The notes under the pieces were generated by a model, which had not been told where the DNA came from, ran no database searches, and was given only the letters and a program-made list of their open reading frames with translations. This document shows, one piece after another, positions 40,834 to 47,279 of a DNA stretch of 64,000 bases. Source of the stretch: Oscillospiraceae bacterium. Its GTDB lineage: Bacteria; Bacillota; Clostridia; Oscillospirales; Ruminococcaceae. Both the position numbers and the translations under genes were made by a program. Each line of letters starts with the position of its first letter. Within the stretch, counting starts at the first letter, position 1. Location of the stretch: assembly GCA_017465665.1 (NCBI GenBank), contig JAFTVU010000017.1:29380-93379 (forward strand), read 5' to 3'.

Positions 40834-41662
40834 TACAGGAAAGCTGTATGTGGTGGGCACGCCGATAGGTAATCTCTCGGATTTCAGTCCGCGTGGTATA
40901 GAAACGCTGGAGAGTGTGGATTATATCGCCGCGGAGGATACAAGAGTATCGCTGAGGCTGCTGACGCATTTCGGTATAAAAAAGCCCATGCTGAGCTATT
41001 ACAAGCCGCATGAGGCAGAAAAGAGCGCAAAGATACTGGAGCTGCTTGCCGATGGCAACAATGTCGCTCTTGTTTCGGATGCGGGTATGCCATGCATTTC
41101 CGATCCCGGTGTATATCTGGTGCAGAAGTGCTATGAAACAGGTATCGCGGTGGAGGTCATACCGTCCTGCAATGCGGCGGTGGCGGCTGTGGCGATAAGC
41201 GGAATAGATACCATGCGCTTTGCGTTTGAGGGATTTCTCCCTGTGAATAAAAAGGAACGCTCCGAGCGTCTGGCGGAGATAAGATCACTTCCGCATACGC
41301 TGATATTCTATGAAGCCCCTCATAAGCTGAGGAAAACTCTTGAGGATATGGCGGAGGCTTTCGGTGGCGACAGATCCTGTGCTCTGTGCCGCGAGCTTAC
41401 TAAGATACATGAGGAAGTCATACGCGGTACGCTTTCAGAGCTGTGCGACTATTACAAGGAGCTTGACCCACGCGGCGAATATGTCGTCGTTGTGGAGGGA
41501 GCGAAGCCCTGTGAAGCACAGGAGTTTACGCTTGAGCAGGCTGCCGAGCTTGCACGTCAGCTTGCGGCAGGCGGAGAGAAGCTCTCCGATGCCTGCAAGA
41601 AAGCGGCAAAGCAGACGGGTTTCTCAAAGCAGGAGATATACAAGCTGGCACTGGAGGAATGA
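40826..41662 (+). CDS. rsmI: 16S rRNA 2'-O-methyltransferase RsmI
   Basis: A 278-aa enzyme that methylates C1402 of 16S rRNA. The N-terminal signature is LYVVGTPIGNLSD, followed by AAEDTRVSLRLL, VSDAGMPCISDPG and SCNAAVAAVAISG, then FYEAPHKLRKTL and RELTKIHEE. The start is the ATG inside the end of the methyltransferase gene; the longer frame upstream has no ribosome-binding site. It is followed directly by a lipoprotein gene whose ribosome-binding site lies in its last codons. Confidence 0.96.
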   Translation: MSDTGKLYVVGTPIGNLSDFSPRGIETLESVDYIAAEDTRVSLRLLTHFGIKKPMLSYYKPHEAEKSAKILELLADGNNVALVSDAGMPCISDPGVYLVQKCYETGIAVEVIPSCNAAVAAVAISGIDTMRFAFEGFLPVNKKERSERLAEIRSLPHTLIFYEAPHKLRKTLEDMAEAFGGDRSCALCRELTKIHEEVIRGTLSELCDYYKELDPRGEYVVVVEGAKPCEAQEFTLEQAAELARQLAAGGEKLSDACKKAAKQTGFSKQEIYKLALEE

Positions 41663-41664
41663 CT

Positions 41665-42258
41665 ATGAAAAAGATGTTTTGTGGTTTGCTGGCGGCCGTT
41701 ACTTTGCTGACAGGGTGTTCAGCGAAATCATCACCCGAAGGAAGCTTATTGGGACGTGGCGAAAGCTACACACGCGGCGCGGTCTCCTTTAGCACAGAGC
41801 TGTATGTGAGCGAGAATCTTCGCAGCACCCATATAAGTGACAAGGCTTATGATGGCAGCTTCGCAGTTTACTGTGAGGAATATGCTGCCGAGGATATCCC
41901 GTCCTTTCAGGAGCAGTATCAGGGACTTATAAACAACTACATGGATTTTGACGGCTATCAGGAGGGCTGGACGGCGGACTACACGCTGGAGGAGAAGACC
42001 GTGATGATAGACGGGCAAGAAGCTGAGGCAATGACGCTTGTTATCGAAGTTTATCGTCCTGAGTACGGACGTTCATGGTATTTCGCGGAGGAGGCACGTT
42101 TGTTCATCGACAGTGAGTTCTACGCAGTGCAGTATATCTACGATACCATGCGTGACGATCTTGCCTATACCTATGACCCTGAGCGTGACGATACCGATAT
42201 CGAAGAGATAAAACAGCGCGCATTGACCATGTACGATTGGATAACAATAAACGAATAA
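41665..42258 (+). CDS. Lipoprotein of unknown function
   Basis: A 197-aa protein with signal peptide and lipobox (LLTGC, Cys17 or 18). The mature part is a beta-rich domain with several aromatic residues (YQEGWTADYTLEEK, YGRSWYFAEEARLF), of a shape similar to PsbP/LpqN-like small lipoproteins, but no family is certain. GGAGG stands seven bases before the chosen ATG; an ATG two codons earlier overlaps the rsmI stop but is too close to the GGAGG. It is probably translated together with rsmI. Confidence 0.75.
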   Translation: MKKMFCGLLAAVTLLTGCSAKSSPEGSLLGRGESYTRGAVSFSTELYVSENLRSTHISDKAYDGSFAVYCEEYAAEDIPSFQEQYQGLINNYMDFDGYQEGWTADYTLEEKTVMIDGQEAEAMTLVIEVYRPEYGRSWYFAEEARLFIDSEFYAVQYIYDTMRDDLAYTYDPERDDTDIEEIKQRALTMYDWITINE

Positions 42259-42290
42259 ACACAAATTCAAACATGAAAGGAAGTATACCT

Positions 42291-42449
42291 ATGAACGAAA
42301 AGAACAACCAGTTTGTAAAGACTCTGCTGCCCATTATCGGTGCAGTTCTGGTGGTTGCGGGCGCTATTGCCTACATCTGCCTCAAGCTCGCAGACGAGCT
42401 GAAGTACAAGGAGAAGTGGAAGGATTACGACGAGTGCGGATGGCACTGA
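42291..42449 (+). CDS. 52-aa single-span membrane protein
   Basis: A short protein: a polar start (MNEKNNQFVK), one transmembrane helix (about residues 11-31, LLPIIGAVLVVAGAIAYICL) and a charged tail ending in CGWH. GGAAG lies ten bases before the ATG; an in-frame ATG six codons earlier is possible. It lies 32 bases after the lipoprotein gene and before a terminator, so it is the last gene of that transcript. No family is recognised. Confidence 0.65.
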   Translation: MNEKNNQFVKTLLPIIGAVLVVAGAIAYICLKLADELKYKEKWKDYDECGWH

Positions 42450-42469
42450 GCTGATCTTGAAACAATATT

Positions 42470-42510
42470 AGCCGTGTAGTAGGAAGCTTACCTGCTGTGC
42501 GGCTTTTTTG
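42470..42510 (+). terminator. Terminator after small membrane protein
   Basis: AGCCGTGTAGTAGG pairs imperfectly with ACCTGCTGTGCGGCT, followed by TTTTTT. Confidence 0.85.
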
Positions 42511-42520
42511 TTTCCTTTCA

Positions 42521-42549
42521 TTGACAGAAAGCAGTATTTGTGATACAAT
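42521..42549 (+). promoter_or_regulatory. Promoter of Sel1/TerY-C/kinase operon
   Basis: TTGACA and TACAAT, 17 bases apart, lie 40 bases before the first gene and directly after the previous terminator. The operon is thus an independent transcription unit. Confidence 0.75.
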
Positions 42550-42588
42550 AATAATATATATCAACTTTTAAAATGGGAGGTGTGCGGT

Positions 42589-43872
42589 ATGCAGTGCGGA
42601 AGATGCGGACGTGAATTTGATTACGGCAGGCAGGACTTCTGCGGTTACTGCAAGACCGTCCATACCCCTGAGGGAGAACCGATACGCGATATCATCGGTG
42701 TTGTGGGATATATCGCACAGCGATTTGGTCCTGAGGTGCTGCTGAATGTACGAAGAACGGACGCGCTGGTTGCCGATATCTTCCCAAAGGAGAACGCCAT
42801 CCGCCGTCAGATATTCGTGGCACTGTATGATGGCTGTGCAAAGAAGCTTGTCGGAGTAAAGGGAAAGCCTTTTGAGGTGCGCTGTGCCGCAGCGGCAAGG
42901 TGCGTGAAGTCCCTGCGAGATGAGGTAGGTCTGAAAGGCAAATATGCTGCTGATGCTGTGGAGGCTATAGGTCAGGCATTGGGCTGTGAGATAGCGTTCA
43001 AGCGCCCTGAGGAAACACCTGTTTCCGTCACCGAGGAAAAGAAAAACATCACGGATGCCGCAGAGCAGTATAGCTTAGGCAGACATTTTGACAGAATAAA
43101 GGATTATGACAGAGCGCTCTACTGGTTTGAGCAGTCTGCGCTTCAGGATTGCGGAGAGGCTCAGTATTATGTAGGCTTCTATCGTCTTGAGGGCAGAGGC
43201 GGCGCTCAGAATGTGGAGCAGGCATGGGAATGGTTCCTGCGTGGAGCGGAAAACGGCATTCCTGCGGCTCAGCACATGGCGGCGCAGTTTCTGGCAGAGG
43301 GAATCTCCTGCGAAAGAGATGAAGCGGCAGCGTTCAACTGGTTTATGGAAGCTGCAAGAGCAGGCTATGATGAAGCGATAAATGTTATTGCTCTGTGTTA
43401 TGAGAATGGCGTATATGTTTCTCAGAATGCTGAGATAGCCCGCAAATGGCGCGATGGCACTATACATACGGACGAATACACCGAGGAGCAGAGCGAGCAG
43501 CCCCAGCCTCTTTCCGATGACGGAGAGGAGCTGTATCAATCCGCAAGGCGTTGTCTTTCGGAGCAGGATTTTGAGGGCGCAGCGATGTTTTACAAACGCG
43601 CGGCTGAGCTGGGTCATGCGAGAGCGCAGTGCAGCTACGGAAAGTGTCTGTATCTTGGCAGCGGAGTGGCTATCAATCATGCGGCGGCGTTTGCATGGTT
43701 CACAAAGGCGGCGGAGCAGAATCTGGATATAGCCCAGTATAATCTCGGAATAATGTACCTCAAGGGTACTTACGTTGAAAAGAACATGAATGAAGCAAGG
43801 AAGTATTTCTCACTCGCTGCAAAGAACGGCCACGAGGAAGCGGAAAAGATCCTTGCGAAACTGAATAGATAA
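42589..43872 (+). CDS. Zinc-ribbon and Sel1-repeat protein
   Basis: A 427-aa scaffold protein, first gene of a three-gene operon. It starts with a four-cysteine zinc ribbon (CGRC at 3-6, CGYC at about 18-21). A helical domain with the pattern LVADIFPKENAIRRQIFVALYDGCAKKL follows (about 35-140), a motif I associate with clostridial Hsp70/TerY-linked proteins. At least six Sel1-like (SLR) repeats come next, for example ALYWFEQSALQDCGEAQYYVG, AWEWFLRGAENGIPAAQHMA and AFAWFTKAAEQNLDIAQYNLG. Sel1 repeats mediate protein contacts. The start is set by GGGAGG eight bases ahead. Together with the TerY-C protein and kinase it probably forms a phosphorylation complex. Confidence 0.8.
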   Translation: MQCGRCGREFDYGRQDFCGYCKTVHTPEGEPIRDIIGVVGYIAQRFGPEVLLNVRRTDALVADIFPKENAIRRQIFVALYDGCAKKLVGVKGKPFEVRCAAAARCVKSLRDEVGLKGKYAADAVEAIGQALGCEIAFKRPEETPVSVTEEKKNITDAAEQYSLGRHFDRIKDYDRALYWFEQSALQDCGEAQYYVGFYRLEGRGGAQNVEQAWEWFLRGAENGIPAAQHMAAQFLAEGISCERDEAAAFNWFMEAARAGYDEAINVIALCYENGVYVSQNAEIARKWRDGTIHTDEYTEEQSEQPQPLSDDGEELYQSARRCLSEQDFEGAAMFYKRAAELGHARAQCSYGKCLYLGSGVAINHAAAFAWFTKAAEQNLDIAQYNLGIMYLKGTYVEKNMNEARKYFSLAAKNGHEEAEKILAKLNR

Positions 43873-43887
43873 CGGAGGTAAACATCA

Positions 43888-44241
43888 ATGTTGACAGCAG
43901 CAGTAATCCTTACAAAGTGCAGACAGTCCCACAACCTTTTCGGTATCCGTACCGAGCAGCGCGAGGATGGCGCATGGTATGCAACATGGGCGTTCAAGGT
44001 TTCCGAGGGCACGGCGGCACGCGAGAAGTTCGGTGATACGAAGATCAGCGGTAACATCTATGTTACTACTGAATACCCCACCTGTCCCTATTGCGGAGCA
44101 AAGGGCTTCTTCCAGTGTGCGGACTGCGGAAAGACAAGCTGCTGGAACGGCGAAAATGAGACTGTATGCGAATGGTGCGGTAATTCCGCTGAGACCGCCG
44201 CAGAAGAGAAGTTTGACTCCATCACCGGAGGCGGCTTCTGA
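43888..44241 (+). CDS. Stand-alone TerY-C zinc-binding domain protein
   Basis: A 117-aa protein consisting of a beta-rich N-terminal part (residues 1-62) and a TerY-C type zinc module (about 63-98) with cysteines in CPYC, CADC, TSC and CEWC. In TerY proteins this module follows a vWA domain; here no vWA domain is present, so the zinc module stands alone. It lies 15 bases after the Sel1 gene (GGAGG site) and its stop overlaps the kinase start (TGATG). The domain identity is from pattern recognition. Its job is probably to bind the kinase or its substrate. Confidence 0.75.
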   Translation: MLTAAVILTKCRQSHNLFGIRTEQREDGAWYATWAFKVSEGTAAREKFGDTKISGNIYVTTEYPTCPYCGAKGFFQCADCGKTSCWNGENETVCEWCGNSAETAAEEKFDSITGGGF

Positions 44242-45521
44242 TGATAAAGGTCGGAGATAAGATACCACTGGAGCTGGGCGGCTATGCCGAGGTAAAGGCG
44301 GTTCTCGGTTCAGGTGGACAGGGTACGGTATACCGTGCTCTTTACCGTGATAAGGAATACGCGCTGAAGATGTACTTCACAAACAAGCTGAAGCGCCCTG
44401 AGCTTTTCAGAGAAAATCTGGCGGCTCTTGCGGATGGCAGCATGGAGTGCGGTTATTTCGTAATGCCTTTACTGCTGACCGAAAACACAAAGGACGGATT
44501 CGGCTTTTTGATGGATCTCATTCCTGAGGGCTATGCGCCATTTTCGGATATCCTCAATGCGCGGGTGAGATTTTCCGGTCTGTATTCCATAGTCAATGCC
44601 GCAATACGAATTACAATGGCTTTCCGCGAGCTGCATAACAGCGGAAAGAGCTATCAGGATCTGAACGATGGCGGATTTTTTATACGTCCGTCTGATGGCG
44701 ATATCAGAATATGTGACTGCGACAACATCGCACCCTACGGCGAGCATCTCGGTATCGCGGGCAAGCCTGGATATATGGCTCCTGAGATAGTTCGTGGCGA
44801 AAAGGCACCCGATAAGCTGACAGACCGTTATTCTCTTGCGGTGCTGCTGTTCCGTCTGCTGCTCAGAGGAGATCCTCTGGAGGGCGGCAGAGTTCTGAAG
44901 AGCGTGTGTCTTACCGAGGAAGCAGAGCGCCGTCACTATGGATTCGAGCCGATGTTCGTGTATGATCCGGAGGATGATTCCAATCGCCCTGTGCGCGGAG
45001 TTCATAACAACATAATCAAATTCTGGCGTATAATGCCTGATTATATCCGCGATGCGTTTACCCACTCCTTTACTGTGGGTCTTCATCAGCCCGAAAAGCG
45101 ACTCATTGAAAAGCAGTGGCTTGATCTGCTGATAAGACTGCGTAATGATATCTGCGCCTGCTCCTGCGGTGCTCAGAGCTTCCGTCAGTCTTTTGAGTCT
45201 GACGATGCAGGCAAGCTGATATGCCCCTGCGGTACGCATTTCGCACCGCCGCTTCAACTTACAGACGGCAGAACCCGTGTTCTGCTTTCGGATGGAACGA
45301 AGCTGTTCGGAGAGGACCTTTCCGTTACAGCGGAGGTAGTACGCAATAAGCTCAACCCCTCGCTGTGGGGACTAAAAAACCACACTGCTGAGGAATGGGG
45401 CTGTACACTTCCCAACGGACAGGATAAGCCTGTACCCGCAGGCTCGGCAGCGCCGATATTTGTAGGGACAAAGATCGTAATGAACGGAATTTCGTTTGAA
45501 ATAAGCGAAAGCGCCGAATAA
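44241..45521 (+). CDS. Divergent Ser/Thr protein kinase of TerY-P type
   Basis: A 426-aa protein with an eukaryotic-like kinase domain (about 10-270), soluble. The glycine loop is GSGGQGTV (23-30) and the ATP lysine is Lys43. The HRD motif is changed to YQD (138-140) with Asn142 kept. The DFG site is DCD (159-161) and APE is kept at 180-182. The YQDLN pattern is one I associate with kinases of tellurium-resistance-type phosphorylation triads. After the kinase comes a zinc ribbon (CSCGAQSF and CPCGTHF, about 310-335) and a C-terminal part (about 342-426) whose strand pattern suggests an FHA-like fold. Its start overlaps the TerY-C gene. Confidence 0.85.
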   Translation: MIKVGDKIPLELGGYAEVKAVLGSGGQGTVYRALYRDKEYALKMYFTNKLKRPELFRENLAALADGSMECGYFVMPLLLTENTKDGFGFLMDLIPEGYAPFSDILNARVRFSGLYSIVNAAIRITMAFRELHNSGKSYQDLNDGGFFIRPSDGDIRICDCDNIAPYGEHLGIAGKPGYMAPEIVRGEKAPDKLTDRYSLAVLLFRLLLRGDPLEGGRVLKSVCLTEEAERRHYGFEPMFVYDPEDDSNRPVRGVHNNIIKFWRIMPDYIRDAFTHSFTVGLHQPEKRLIEKQWLDLLIRLRNDICACSCGAQSFRQSFESDDAGKLICPCGTHFAPPLQLTDGRTRVLLSDGTKLFGEDLSVTAEVVRNKLNPSLWGLKNHTAEEWGCTLPNGQDKPVPAGSAAPIFVGTKIVMNGISFEISESAE

Positions 45522-45533
45522 CAACAAACAGAA

Positions 45534-45570
45534 CGCCCCGAGAAGAAATATATCTTCTCGGGGCATTTTT
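45534..45570. terminator. Bidirectional terminator
   Basis: GCCCCGAGAAGA-AATATA-TCTTCTCGGGGC with T-rich ends lies between the convergent kinase and APH-like genes. Confidence 0.9.
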
Positions 45571-46246
45571 ATGCTGTTGTTTCAACCTCTGCCACGATCC
45601 TTAGTATATCCATATCGATATTTTCTCTGCCGTAAATATCCAGGAAAAGCTCTGTGTATTTATCTGTCTTAAGATTATAATTCAGCGACCAGAGTGCCCA
45701 GTAGATATCTATATGCTTGTCTCCGACACCTGCAAGTCCCAGATCGATAAACGTGCTGAATTTCCAATCATCAAGTATTATATTGGGCAGGCAGAAATCG
45801 CCGTGTATAAAGGTGTCCTGTTTCAGATATTTGTCTTTTTCGAGCTGTGCGTAGGTTTCTATACAAGGTGACACAGGGATGTTATCAATTGGTCTGCTGT
45901 GCAGGAATTTCATCGTTTCGGCAAGCACCCTGCACAGCCGCTCGGGATCATCAAGATAATGCAGGGCATCCTCGCCTTTGGCAGGCAACGTGACCATGTA
46001 CTCCCTGTCAGCTGATATGTAATGTACGACCTTAACTCCCAGTCCGTTGCGGTCAAGCGTTTCGGTCAGCTCAGCTTCCTTTCGCAGCATATCCTTTTCG
46101 GCAATCTTGACATAATAGCCAAGCTCGCTGTAAAGTACTGTCATGGTAGGATGCGAGCTGCTGTCGTACACCTTTGTATCTTTAAATATATAATGAAGCT
46201 CCTCGGGGAATTCTTCAATATTAATTGTGATCTCTTTCTTTTGCAT
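45569..46246 (-). CDS. APH-family phosphotransferase
   Basis: A 225-aa small-molecule kinase of the aminoglycoside phosphotransferase fold. The Brenner-type motif FIHGDFCLPNIILDDWKFSTFIDLG contains the catalytic Asp and Asn and the metal-binding Asp. It is very like the APH(3') pattern HGDxCLPNIIL. The downstream GVGDKHIDIYWALWSL also follows APH(3') in part. The protein is about 40 residues shorter than known APH(3') enzymes, mainly at the N-terminus, and the C-terminus ends early. It may be a housekeeping relative, not a resistance enzyme. A GGAGAA ribosome-binding site is present, 13 bases after the next upstream gene. Confidence 0.8.
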   Translation of the reverse strand: MQKKEITINIEEFPEELHYIFKDTKVYDSSSHPTMTVLYSELGYYVKIAEKDMLRKEAELTETLDRNGLGVKVVHYISADREYMVTLPAKGEDALHYLDDPERLCRVLAETMKFLHSRPIDNIPVSPCIETYAQLEKDKYLKQDTFIHGDFCLPNIILDDWKFSTFIDLGLAGVGDKHIDIYWALWSLNYNLKTDKYTELFLDIYGRENIDMDILRIVAEVETTA

Positions 46247-46259
46247 AGTATGTTCTCCG

Positions 46260-47279
46260 TTATGTCTGAGGCTTTCTGGCGTATAACTCGACTATCGCAC
46301 CGCTGTCGATATCGGAGAGAATAAAGAGCTGTGTATCGCCCGACATCATCAATATACAAGTAACACGCTCCAGACCGAGAGCCGTGCGTATCTCATCCTC
46401 GGCATTCTCGTATCTGTCGGGATCGCCCAGAGGCGGTATCGGCATTCGCCAACTGTTATCCGAAAGTATCTTCATAGCATCTGAAAGATCTGTTCCTATC
46501 GTGAGATCGCCTATCTCCACTTCTGATATCGGCACTTCCACATATATTATCTCTGTTTCGGCAGGCTCGTTCTGCGAGGAAGTCTGTGTGACATCATGCA
46601 CGATAGGTGTACCGTCAGGGAGGACTATTGTTCTGCCATCCAGATGTATCTGTATCTGCGAAAGCGTTTTAGTTTTTGGGTAATACACTACCGTGATATC
46701 AGGCGAGCTTTCGCGGATGATATTACGCACATCCTCCCTCATCACATCTCCGTATACTGTAAATGAAACTATTTTAGAGCCGTCACGCCCTTTCAGATAA
46801 TACGGGCGGCGCGCCAGCCTTGATGCATTGTTATGACCTGTATTGGTGCGCGCTTGTATCTGAGTATTTGTAAGGGTGACGCTTACAGTGCCGTTTTTTA
46901 GATCTTCCATATCCGAGGATATGCCTACCAGTGAGAAGATCACCAGTATCACAGCGATAACAATACCAAAGGTAATGCTTACGCGGTTGCTGTCAAAGGC
47001 GCGTTCAAACTCTGCTGTTGCGCTGTTATCCTGCTCATGACGCTCTGCTTTTATACTTTTCGTATCTTTGTTATGCTGTATTACTTTGCGTATAACGTGA
47101 TATGCCACCAGACACACGCTGAGCACCATTACGATGACACCTTTGATGATACTGTATCTCAGCGCTTCTTCGCCCATGCGCGGCATAGCTGACATCAGCA
47201 GGAACAAGCCTGCCATTACAGCTATATAAATGATCGTTACTGCGTTCTGCGATAAAAATTTCTTTGCATTGCCATTCAT
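46260..47279 (-). CDS. Membrane protein of unknown function
   Basis: A 339-aa protein with three transmembrane segments (about 12-30, 41-63 and 98-118) and a large C-terminal extracellular or cytoplasmic domain of beta and helix mix. Short parts repeat the DISVVYYPK and EVEIGDLTIG style of strands. No family is recognised. It lies between the APH-like gene and a small membrane-protein gene on the same strand with short gaps, so the three may be co-transcribed. Confidence 0.7.
   Translation of the reverse strand: MNGNAKKFLSQNAVTIIYIAVMAGLFLLMSAMPRMGEEALRYSIIKGVIVMVLSVCLVAYHVIRKVIQHNKDTKSIKAERHEQDNSATAEFERAFDSNRVSITFGIVIAVILVIFSLVGISSDMEDLKNGTVSVTLTNTQIQARTNTGHNNASRLARRPYYLKGRDGSKIVSFTVYGDVMREDVRNIIRESSPDITVVYYPKTKTLSQIQIHLDGRTIVLPDGTPIVHDVTQTSSQNEPAETEIIYVEVPISEVEIGDLTIGTDLSDAMKILSDNSWRMPIPPLGDPDRYENAEDEIRTALGLERVTCILMMSGDTQLFILSDIDSGAIVELYARKPQT

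Follow-up and report, generated by a model that had tools for sequence, protein, structure and literature searches.

The 64,000-nucleotide stretch of DNA analysed here (the window; genome G000, contig C48, positions 29380-93379, from an Oscillospiraceae bacterium with a 2.87 Mb assembly of 155 contigs) carries a three-gene operon, sel1A-terYC-kin, encoding a zinc-ribbon/Sel1 scaffold, a stand-alone TerY-C protein and an atypical Ser/Thr kinase. A TerY-P triad has been described as a TerY vWA protein, a PP2C phosphatase and a Ser/Thr kinase with a C-terminal zinc ribbon (in a passage of PMC11090510 crediting Anantharaman et al. 2012). We conclude that the operon is probably one half of a TerY-P-like module, comprising kinase, TerY-C and scaffold, and that in this genus the module is divided between two transcription units, because a vWA and a PP2C gene are present at a second locus, the motifs of their products are kept, the two halves co-occur, their trees are congruent and promoter-like sites are found at both loci. 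The operon represents a known system type in an unusual arrangement rather than a new minimal system. As judged from the sequences, the two halves would act together in trans.

Organization and conservation of the operon

The three same-strand open reading frames (ORFs) lie between a near-consensus promoter-like site and a terminator-like hairpin. The start of sel1A is the ATG at 42589, an alternative in-frame GTG at 42580 being possible; 15 bases separate sel1A from terYC, and the terYC stop overlaps the kin start. A second terminator-like hairpin, at 42470-42504, closes off the preceding gene. The features are as follows:

42521..42549, + strand: promoter-like site, TTGACA-17-TACAAT, with TG preceding the second hexamer and an 11/12 consensus match
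42589..43872, + strand: sel1A, a zinc-ribbon/helical N-domain followed by Sel1 repeats (Pfam Sel1, 6 stretches, 5.8e-38)
42589..42984, + strand: N-domain of sel1A, ~130 residues, with C3, C6, C18, C21 and D63 invariant across 23 aligned relatives
43888..44241, + strand: terYC, a stand-alone TerY-C protein of 117 residues with 8 Cys (PF15616, 3.6e-9)
44241..45521, + strand: kin, an atypical Ser/Thr kinase of 426 residues (Pfam Pkinase, 9.1e-15, residues 17-216)
44652..44681, + strand: kinase catalytic loop YQDLNDGGFF, with Gly at the canonical-kinase Asn position
44709..44726, + strand: kinase ICDCDN, with DCD at the DFG position
45159..45230, + strand: kinase C-terminal zinc ribbon, CxC...CxC, invariant among 40 aligned kinases
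45258..45506, + strand: kinase C-terminal tail, conserved in 40 kinases, called FHA-like in a preliminary description, without a Pfam FHA match or a PDB sequence relative
45532..45567, no strand assigned: bidirectional terminator-like hairpin, common to the operon and a convergent APH-family gene

The ORFs and Pfam matches confirm the three coupled genes that the preliminary description had proposed, including its assignment of TerY-C. The match of the TerY-C protein to PF15616 scored 37.2 bits against a cut-off of 28.4 and covered profile positions 72-121 of 129 only; 8/8 of its relatives also match PF15616. TerY-C relatives (E≤0.001) were found in 41/43 genomes of the genus and in 13/396 genomes of the family sample, seven of these 13 being genus members.

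The gene order, whose conservation the preliminary description had suggested checking, was compared within the genus at 40 named loci (L084-L123) and is largely conserved. The sel1A gene lies upstream of the TerY-C gene on the same strand in 38/40 loci, and on the opposite strand in two (L118 and L119), and the kinase was seen in 36/40. At L085, L110 and L111, where the kinase was not seen, the contig stops ≤1.3 kb from the TerY-C gene; the kinase of L102 (genome G413) was found on a different contig. L122 has the TerY-C gene and the kinase start in one reading frame, and a broken kinase gene. A HAD hydrolase gene is inserted within the operon at 10 of the 40 loci and a NapH-like ferredoxin protein gene at three, and a GNAT gene follows the kinase at 25. 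The ratio of nonsynonymous to synonymous substitution rates (dN/dS) was 0.02-0.09 in 9/13 comparisons with unsaturated dS, and these values are rough since dS was >1 in all nine.

Stand-alone TerY-C genes were also seen at the Ruminococcus-type loci L020, L021, L128, L129, L149 and L151, with kinase, vWA and PP2C not found in the stretch examined; among the Ruminococcus-type genomes with a stand-alone TerY-C, G260 and G305 carry partners elsewhere. At L024 (9547-10335) the first half of a TerY-C-like protein is fused to a VWA domain in a single ORF, hinting that TerY-C works with vWA.

A second locus carries the vWA and PP2C genes

With the vWA and PP2C proteins of the complete triad L022 as queries, an adjacent vWA-PP2C gene pair (Pfam VWA, 2.5e-8; PP2C_2, 7.7e-35) was found in the same genome on contig C24, separate from the contig of the kinase operon (C48). 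Its vWA protein is 50% identical to that of the complete triad. The preliminary description had presented a unit without vWA or phosphatase, which is true of the operon but not of the genome; the kinship with TerY-P systems that it had proposed holds. The genome encodes a kinase with a zinc ribbon, TerY-C, vWA and PP2C. Matches to vWA of >100 bits were obtained in 39/43 genus genomes, and 37/43 combine a vWA match of this strength with TerY-C. PP2C matches (E≤0.001) were obtained in 42/43, a count that includes the more distant Ter-type PP2C. The metal ion-dependent adhesion site (MIDAS) motifs are retained in 11/11 second loci inspected; the PP2C motifs DGHG and DDIS are likewise present in 11/11, and LSSDG in 10/11 (not found in L079). 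An SseB-domain gene often follows the vWA-PP2C pair.

The closest spacing of the two halves among the loci examined was 3.6 kb (L070/L093, G429) and 4.2 kb (L071/L094, G424), with vWA-PP2C upstream of sel1A on the same strand and other genes between. Where the halves are on one contig, they are also found 29 kb apart in G431 and 111 kb apart in G180.

Upstream of vWA at the second loci, a TTGACA/TATAAT-like match of 11 or 12 of 12 was present in 9/11 cases; upstream of sel1A, the best match was 10 or 11 of 12 in 8/10 genus regions and 9 in the other two. Both scans recorded the best match per upstream region without a null, and L070 and L071 are near-duplicates. Because near-consensus sites lie upstream of both sel1A and vWA, each half would seem to have its own strong promoter. 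L086, from a further species, lacks the sel1A promoter-like site in the upstream alignment. The preliminary description had given the operon its own promoter and terminator; in favour of this, the promoter-like site recurs in the genus and hairpins are present at both ends, but the number of promoter-like sites in the region is not above that in shuffled sequences (4 found vs a mean of 3.4). No RNA elements were detected at gathering scores within 41600-46300. The convergent gene at 45572-46246 (- strand), which shares the terminator hairpin with the operon, encodes an APH-family phosphotransferase (PF01636, 1.5e-15).

Co-occurrence and phylogeny of the two halves

Searches of the family sample with the window kinase and with the genus vWA, each at E≤1e-25, matched the identical 64/396 genomes, and all seven genus members in that sample have both. 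Outside the genus, the best kinase and vWA matches lie within 1.5 kb of each other in 54/57 genomes. The three unlinked genomes are G260, with both loci well inside contigs, G122, with the kinase inside a contig and vWA near a contig start, and G213, whose kinase lies at the end of a contig. The module genes of G260 are spread over three contigs, one each for the kinase, the vWA-PP2C pair and TerY-C; a similar dispersed set is found in G305, with vWA-PP2C and TerY-C ~23 kb apart on one contig, in addition to a complete linked triad. Since G260 and G305 show similar dispersal, splitting probably occurred more than once.

The genus formed a single clade in the trees of the kinase (Shimodaira-Hasegawa-like approximate likelihood ratio test, SH-aLRT, 100), vWA (99) and PP2C (100), and grouped with complete triads at SH-aLRT values of 94, 92 and 94, respectively. 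In the vWA tree the order within the group of genus and complete triads did not resolve, and the position of long rows such as L024 and L069 is unsure.

A phage or plasmid origin was considered and rejected: no kinase relative was obtained at E≤1e-5 among 50,697 phage records, and distant kinase relatives were present in 11/72,556 plasmid records, all at <60% identity. In a viral collection, five contigs carry kinases 36-46% identical to that of the window. The putatively viral contigs L214 and L215 of this collection have TerY-C, kinase, vWA and PP2C in one row, and L217 has kinase, vWA and PP2C.

The kinase has an unusual active site

The preliminary description called the kinase divergent, with YQD, DCD and a zinc ribbon, and these motifs are present. 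The protein retains the Gly loop, the beta-3 Lys, the Asp of YQD (HRD position) and the first Asp of DCD (DFG position). The metal-binding Asn of the catalytic loop is absent, Gly being found at this position in 36/36 genus kinases scored. Gly occurs with DCD in these 36 kinases and in 26 others; Asn occurs with DND or DTD in 22 others. The scoring left out loci known to be from the same genomes and kinases of <250 bits, a cut-off that removes the Ter-type kinases (these have Asn), and dropped four sequences without both motifs, among them L189 (Gly loop). In protein kinase A the corresponding residue, Asn171, belongs to a set of six conserved kinase residues and is a ligand of the cations that accompany ATP (as stated in a passage of PMC4718504). 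The expected helix C region contains no invariant acidic residue. An Asn-to-Gly change as a result of phosphatase loss was rejected; because the complete triads of the sister group share the Gly, the change is not tied to the split.

The FHA-like character that the preliminary description gave to the C-terminal tail was not borne out: a Pfam FHA match was obtained in 0/40 kinases at E≤5, in a search whose HMMER filters discard the majority of weak matches. The final 132 kinase residues gave no PDB sequence relative at E≤5.

Lachnospiraceae-type triads carry a second kinase-like protein without a recognisable Gly loop, Lys or HRD (L127 4726-5976, L131 7163-8344 and L147 7198-8391), which in L127 matches Pkinase at 1.2e-5, below the cut-off. 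This protein is likely a paired pseudokinase.

The N-domain of Sel1A is shared with complete triads

An iterated profile built from 44 non-genus N-domain sequences matched the window Sel1A at 9.6e-14 (in 6213 genus ORFs) and recovered the Sel1 protein in 39/40 named genus loci, the miss being the cut ORF of L108. With a three-seed profile the genus was reached weakly (L089, L019, L114 and L085, E 0.005-0.01, L019 and L114 being one genome) and the window protein was not listed, so that the strong kinship needs the iterated profile. Pfam gives solely zinc-ribbon type matches at the start of the N-domain, and no PDB match was better than 0.0075. In its own genome the full-length N-domain occurs once, and nine other matches span the zinc ribbon only.

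Among 46 loci with kinase, vWA and PP2C, an N-domain protein is present in 31 and TerY-C in 33, and the two-kinase layout is found in 12/15 of the complete triads without an N-domain; this sample was drawn via TerY-C or kinase matches and holds near-duplicates, and these figures are not frequencies in nature. The repeats joined to the N-domain vary, being Sel1 in L134 and L137 and leucine-rich repeats (LRR) in L186. Since the Sel1-bearing scaffold coexists with vWA in the complete triads L134 and L137, it is not readable as a vWA substitute. The idea of the preliminary description that the scaffold replaces the vWA part was rejected on this ground, and the genome of the window itself encodes a vWA. 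An adaptor N-domain that is common to split and complete modules and carries differing repeats points at the read-out step.

A gene for an [Fe] hydrogenase-like 4Fe-4S protein (PF02906) lies near the N-domain/kinase/vWA/PP2C operon in 9/13 related loci, and directly upstream in L184 (4508-6199) and L190 (4636-6324). It may not be a fixed partner: its position varies, and the genus has homologues elsewhere.

Alternative explanations

Several observations weigh against a split module whose halves work together. Six of the 43 genus genomes lack one side: no strong vWA match was obtained in G397, G401, G416 (each 73% complete) and G425 (93%), and no TerY-C in G404 and G415. G401 has a cut vWA match beside a PP2C match at a contig edge, and G404 (90% complete) is also without the kinase and keeps vWA. 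The genome of the window holds in addition a complete Ter-linked triad on contig C15, a possible partner or a confounder of the assignment. Co-occurrence is trivial in linked genomes, the genus members are not independent, and informative split cases are few. The trees were quick, with SH-aLRT only and no bootstrap, and include long rows; the promoter scans of both loci lack a null; and an N-domain protein was not found in 15 of the 46 complete triads, nor TerY-C in 13. That the operon is a self-sufficient minimal system, in which the Sel1 scaffold replaces vWA and the kinase needs no phosphatase, as the preliminary description held, is very improbable. The operon is indeed delimited by a promoter-like site and hairpins, the two halves of the module are on different contigs in this genome and 111 kb apart in G180, and in G397, G416 and G425 TerY-C occurs with no strong vWA match; however, almost every genome of the genus retains vWA and PP2C, L134 and L137 carry a Sel1-bearing N-domain protein alongside vWA, and the genomes of G397 and G416 are only 73% complete. 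We consider it unlikely, though less so, that the kinase operon and the vWA-PP2C pair come from one ancestral module and now serve different pathways. Such a parting would agree with the physical separation throughout the genus, with extra genes that differ by locus (HAD, GNAT or ferredoxin at the kinase operon, SseB at vWA-PP2C) and with G404, which has vWA without kinase or TerY-C. It is opposed by the retention of both halves in 37/43 genomes and in each of the seven genus members sampled from the family, and by motifs that remain intact.

The split module remains our preferred explanation, and it is compatible with a kinase that is a pseudokinase, that is, an ATP-binding switch or scaffold without phosphotransfer; the probabilities of the two are not exclusive. 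We regard a pseudokinase as possible but doubtful. The Gly with DCD in all 36 genus kinases scored and in 26 others, the loss of a conserved cation ligand (Asn171 of protein kinase A in PMC4718504) and the lack of an invariant acidic residue where helix C is expected argue for it, whereas the Gly loop, the beta-3 Lys and the Asp residues of the HRD and DFG positions are kept, and PP2C is kept in the same genomes. Tentatively, a large clostridial clade of TerY-P-like kinases may have swapped Asn for Gly together with DND for DCD, giving an atypical-metal kinase or an ATP-bound pseudokinase switch, and may combine it with an undescribed adaptor with interchangeable repeats (Sel1, LRR and others) in a client-presenting device, which here would be a two-locus one. 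The Gly/DCD active site makes the question of whether this is a real kinase directly testable.

In a split module, the kinase, or its ATP-bound state, would act on an assembly of vWA, TerY-C and the N-domain/Sel1 scaffold, and PP2C would oppose the kinase, both setting the state of this assembly. The metal site of vWA and the zinc domains would be the likely sensing and docking parts, and the Sel1 repeats might hold or present a client protein. Of this scheme we infer the assembly itself, the transfer of phosphate and the existence of a client. TerY-P modules are recognised by gene clustering; because almost all members of the genus have the parts at two loci, a neighbourhood search would call the operon incomplete. 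No description of a split TerY-P module was recognised among the papers listed in searches of an open-licence library, a scope outside which most subscription papers fall.

Comparison with known systems

One hypothesis for the TerY-P triad is a phosphorylation-dependent switch that senses metal, and modules related to it have been described as antiphage systems (passages of PMC11090510 and PMC7699616). As in that triad, a kinase with a C-terminal zinc ribbon shares an operon with TerY-C, and a MIDAS vWA and a PP2C are encoded in the same genome; unlike in the triad, vWA and PP2C are at another locus, the three genes are not together, and there is an extra N-domain/Sel1 protein. No Ter or DNA-processing families were found in the flanking ORFs scanned with Pfam (five ORFs only, not the whole window). 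Incomplete TerY-P clusters of Helicobacter pylori contain disrupted genes (according to a passage of PMC4978471), whereas the window shows no such disruption.

In PADLOC the kinase domain matched best to the defence kinases MAD6 (3.4e-11) and PD-T4-6 (1.6e-10), but this likeness is general to kinase domains, and the NCBIfam MAD6 score was 22.9 against a cut-off of 460. Identity with a known defence system was rejected, PADLOC giving the kinase models MAD6, PD-T4-6 and C3a189, a weak PtuA match of Sel1A (0.0067) and nothing for TerY-C. Nothing here shows a defence role.

The Ter-linked operon on C15 of the same genome (L069 1601-9590: vWA, PP2C, kinase, TerD, YceG_bac and TelA) has the same component classes as the split module. 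It differs in being complete and beside TerD and TelA, and its kinase is 29% identical and keeps the Asn (HSDLSCNNVL). The complete kin-vWA-PP2C(-TerY-C) operons known from Oscillospiraceae, Lachnospiraceae and other groups (among them L022, L130, L147 and L184) encode a homologous kinase, vWA and PP2C, many of them with TerY-C and the N-domain. Unlike in the genus of the window, the genes of these complete operons are together, the N-domain is joined to LRR or other repeats, and many have a second kinase-like protein.

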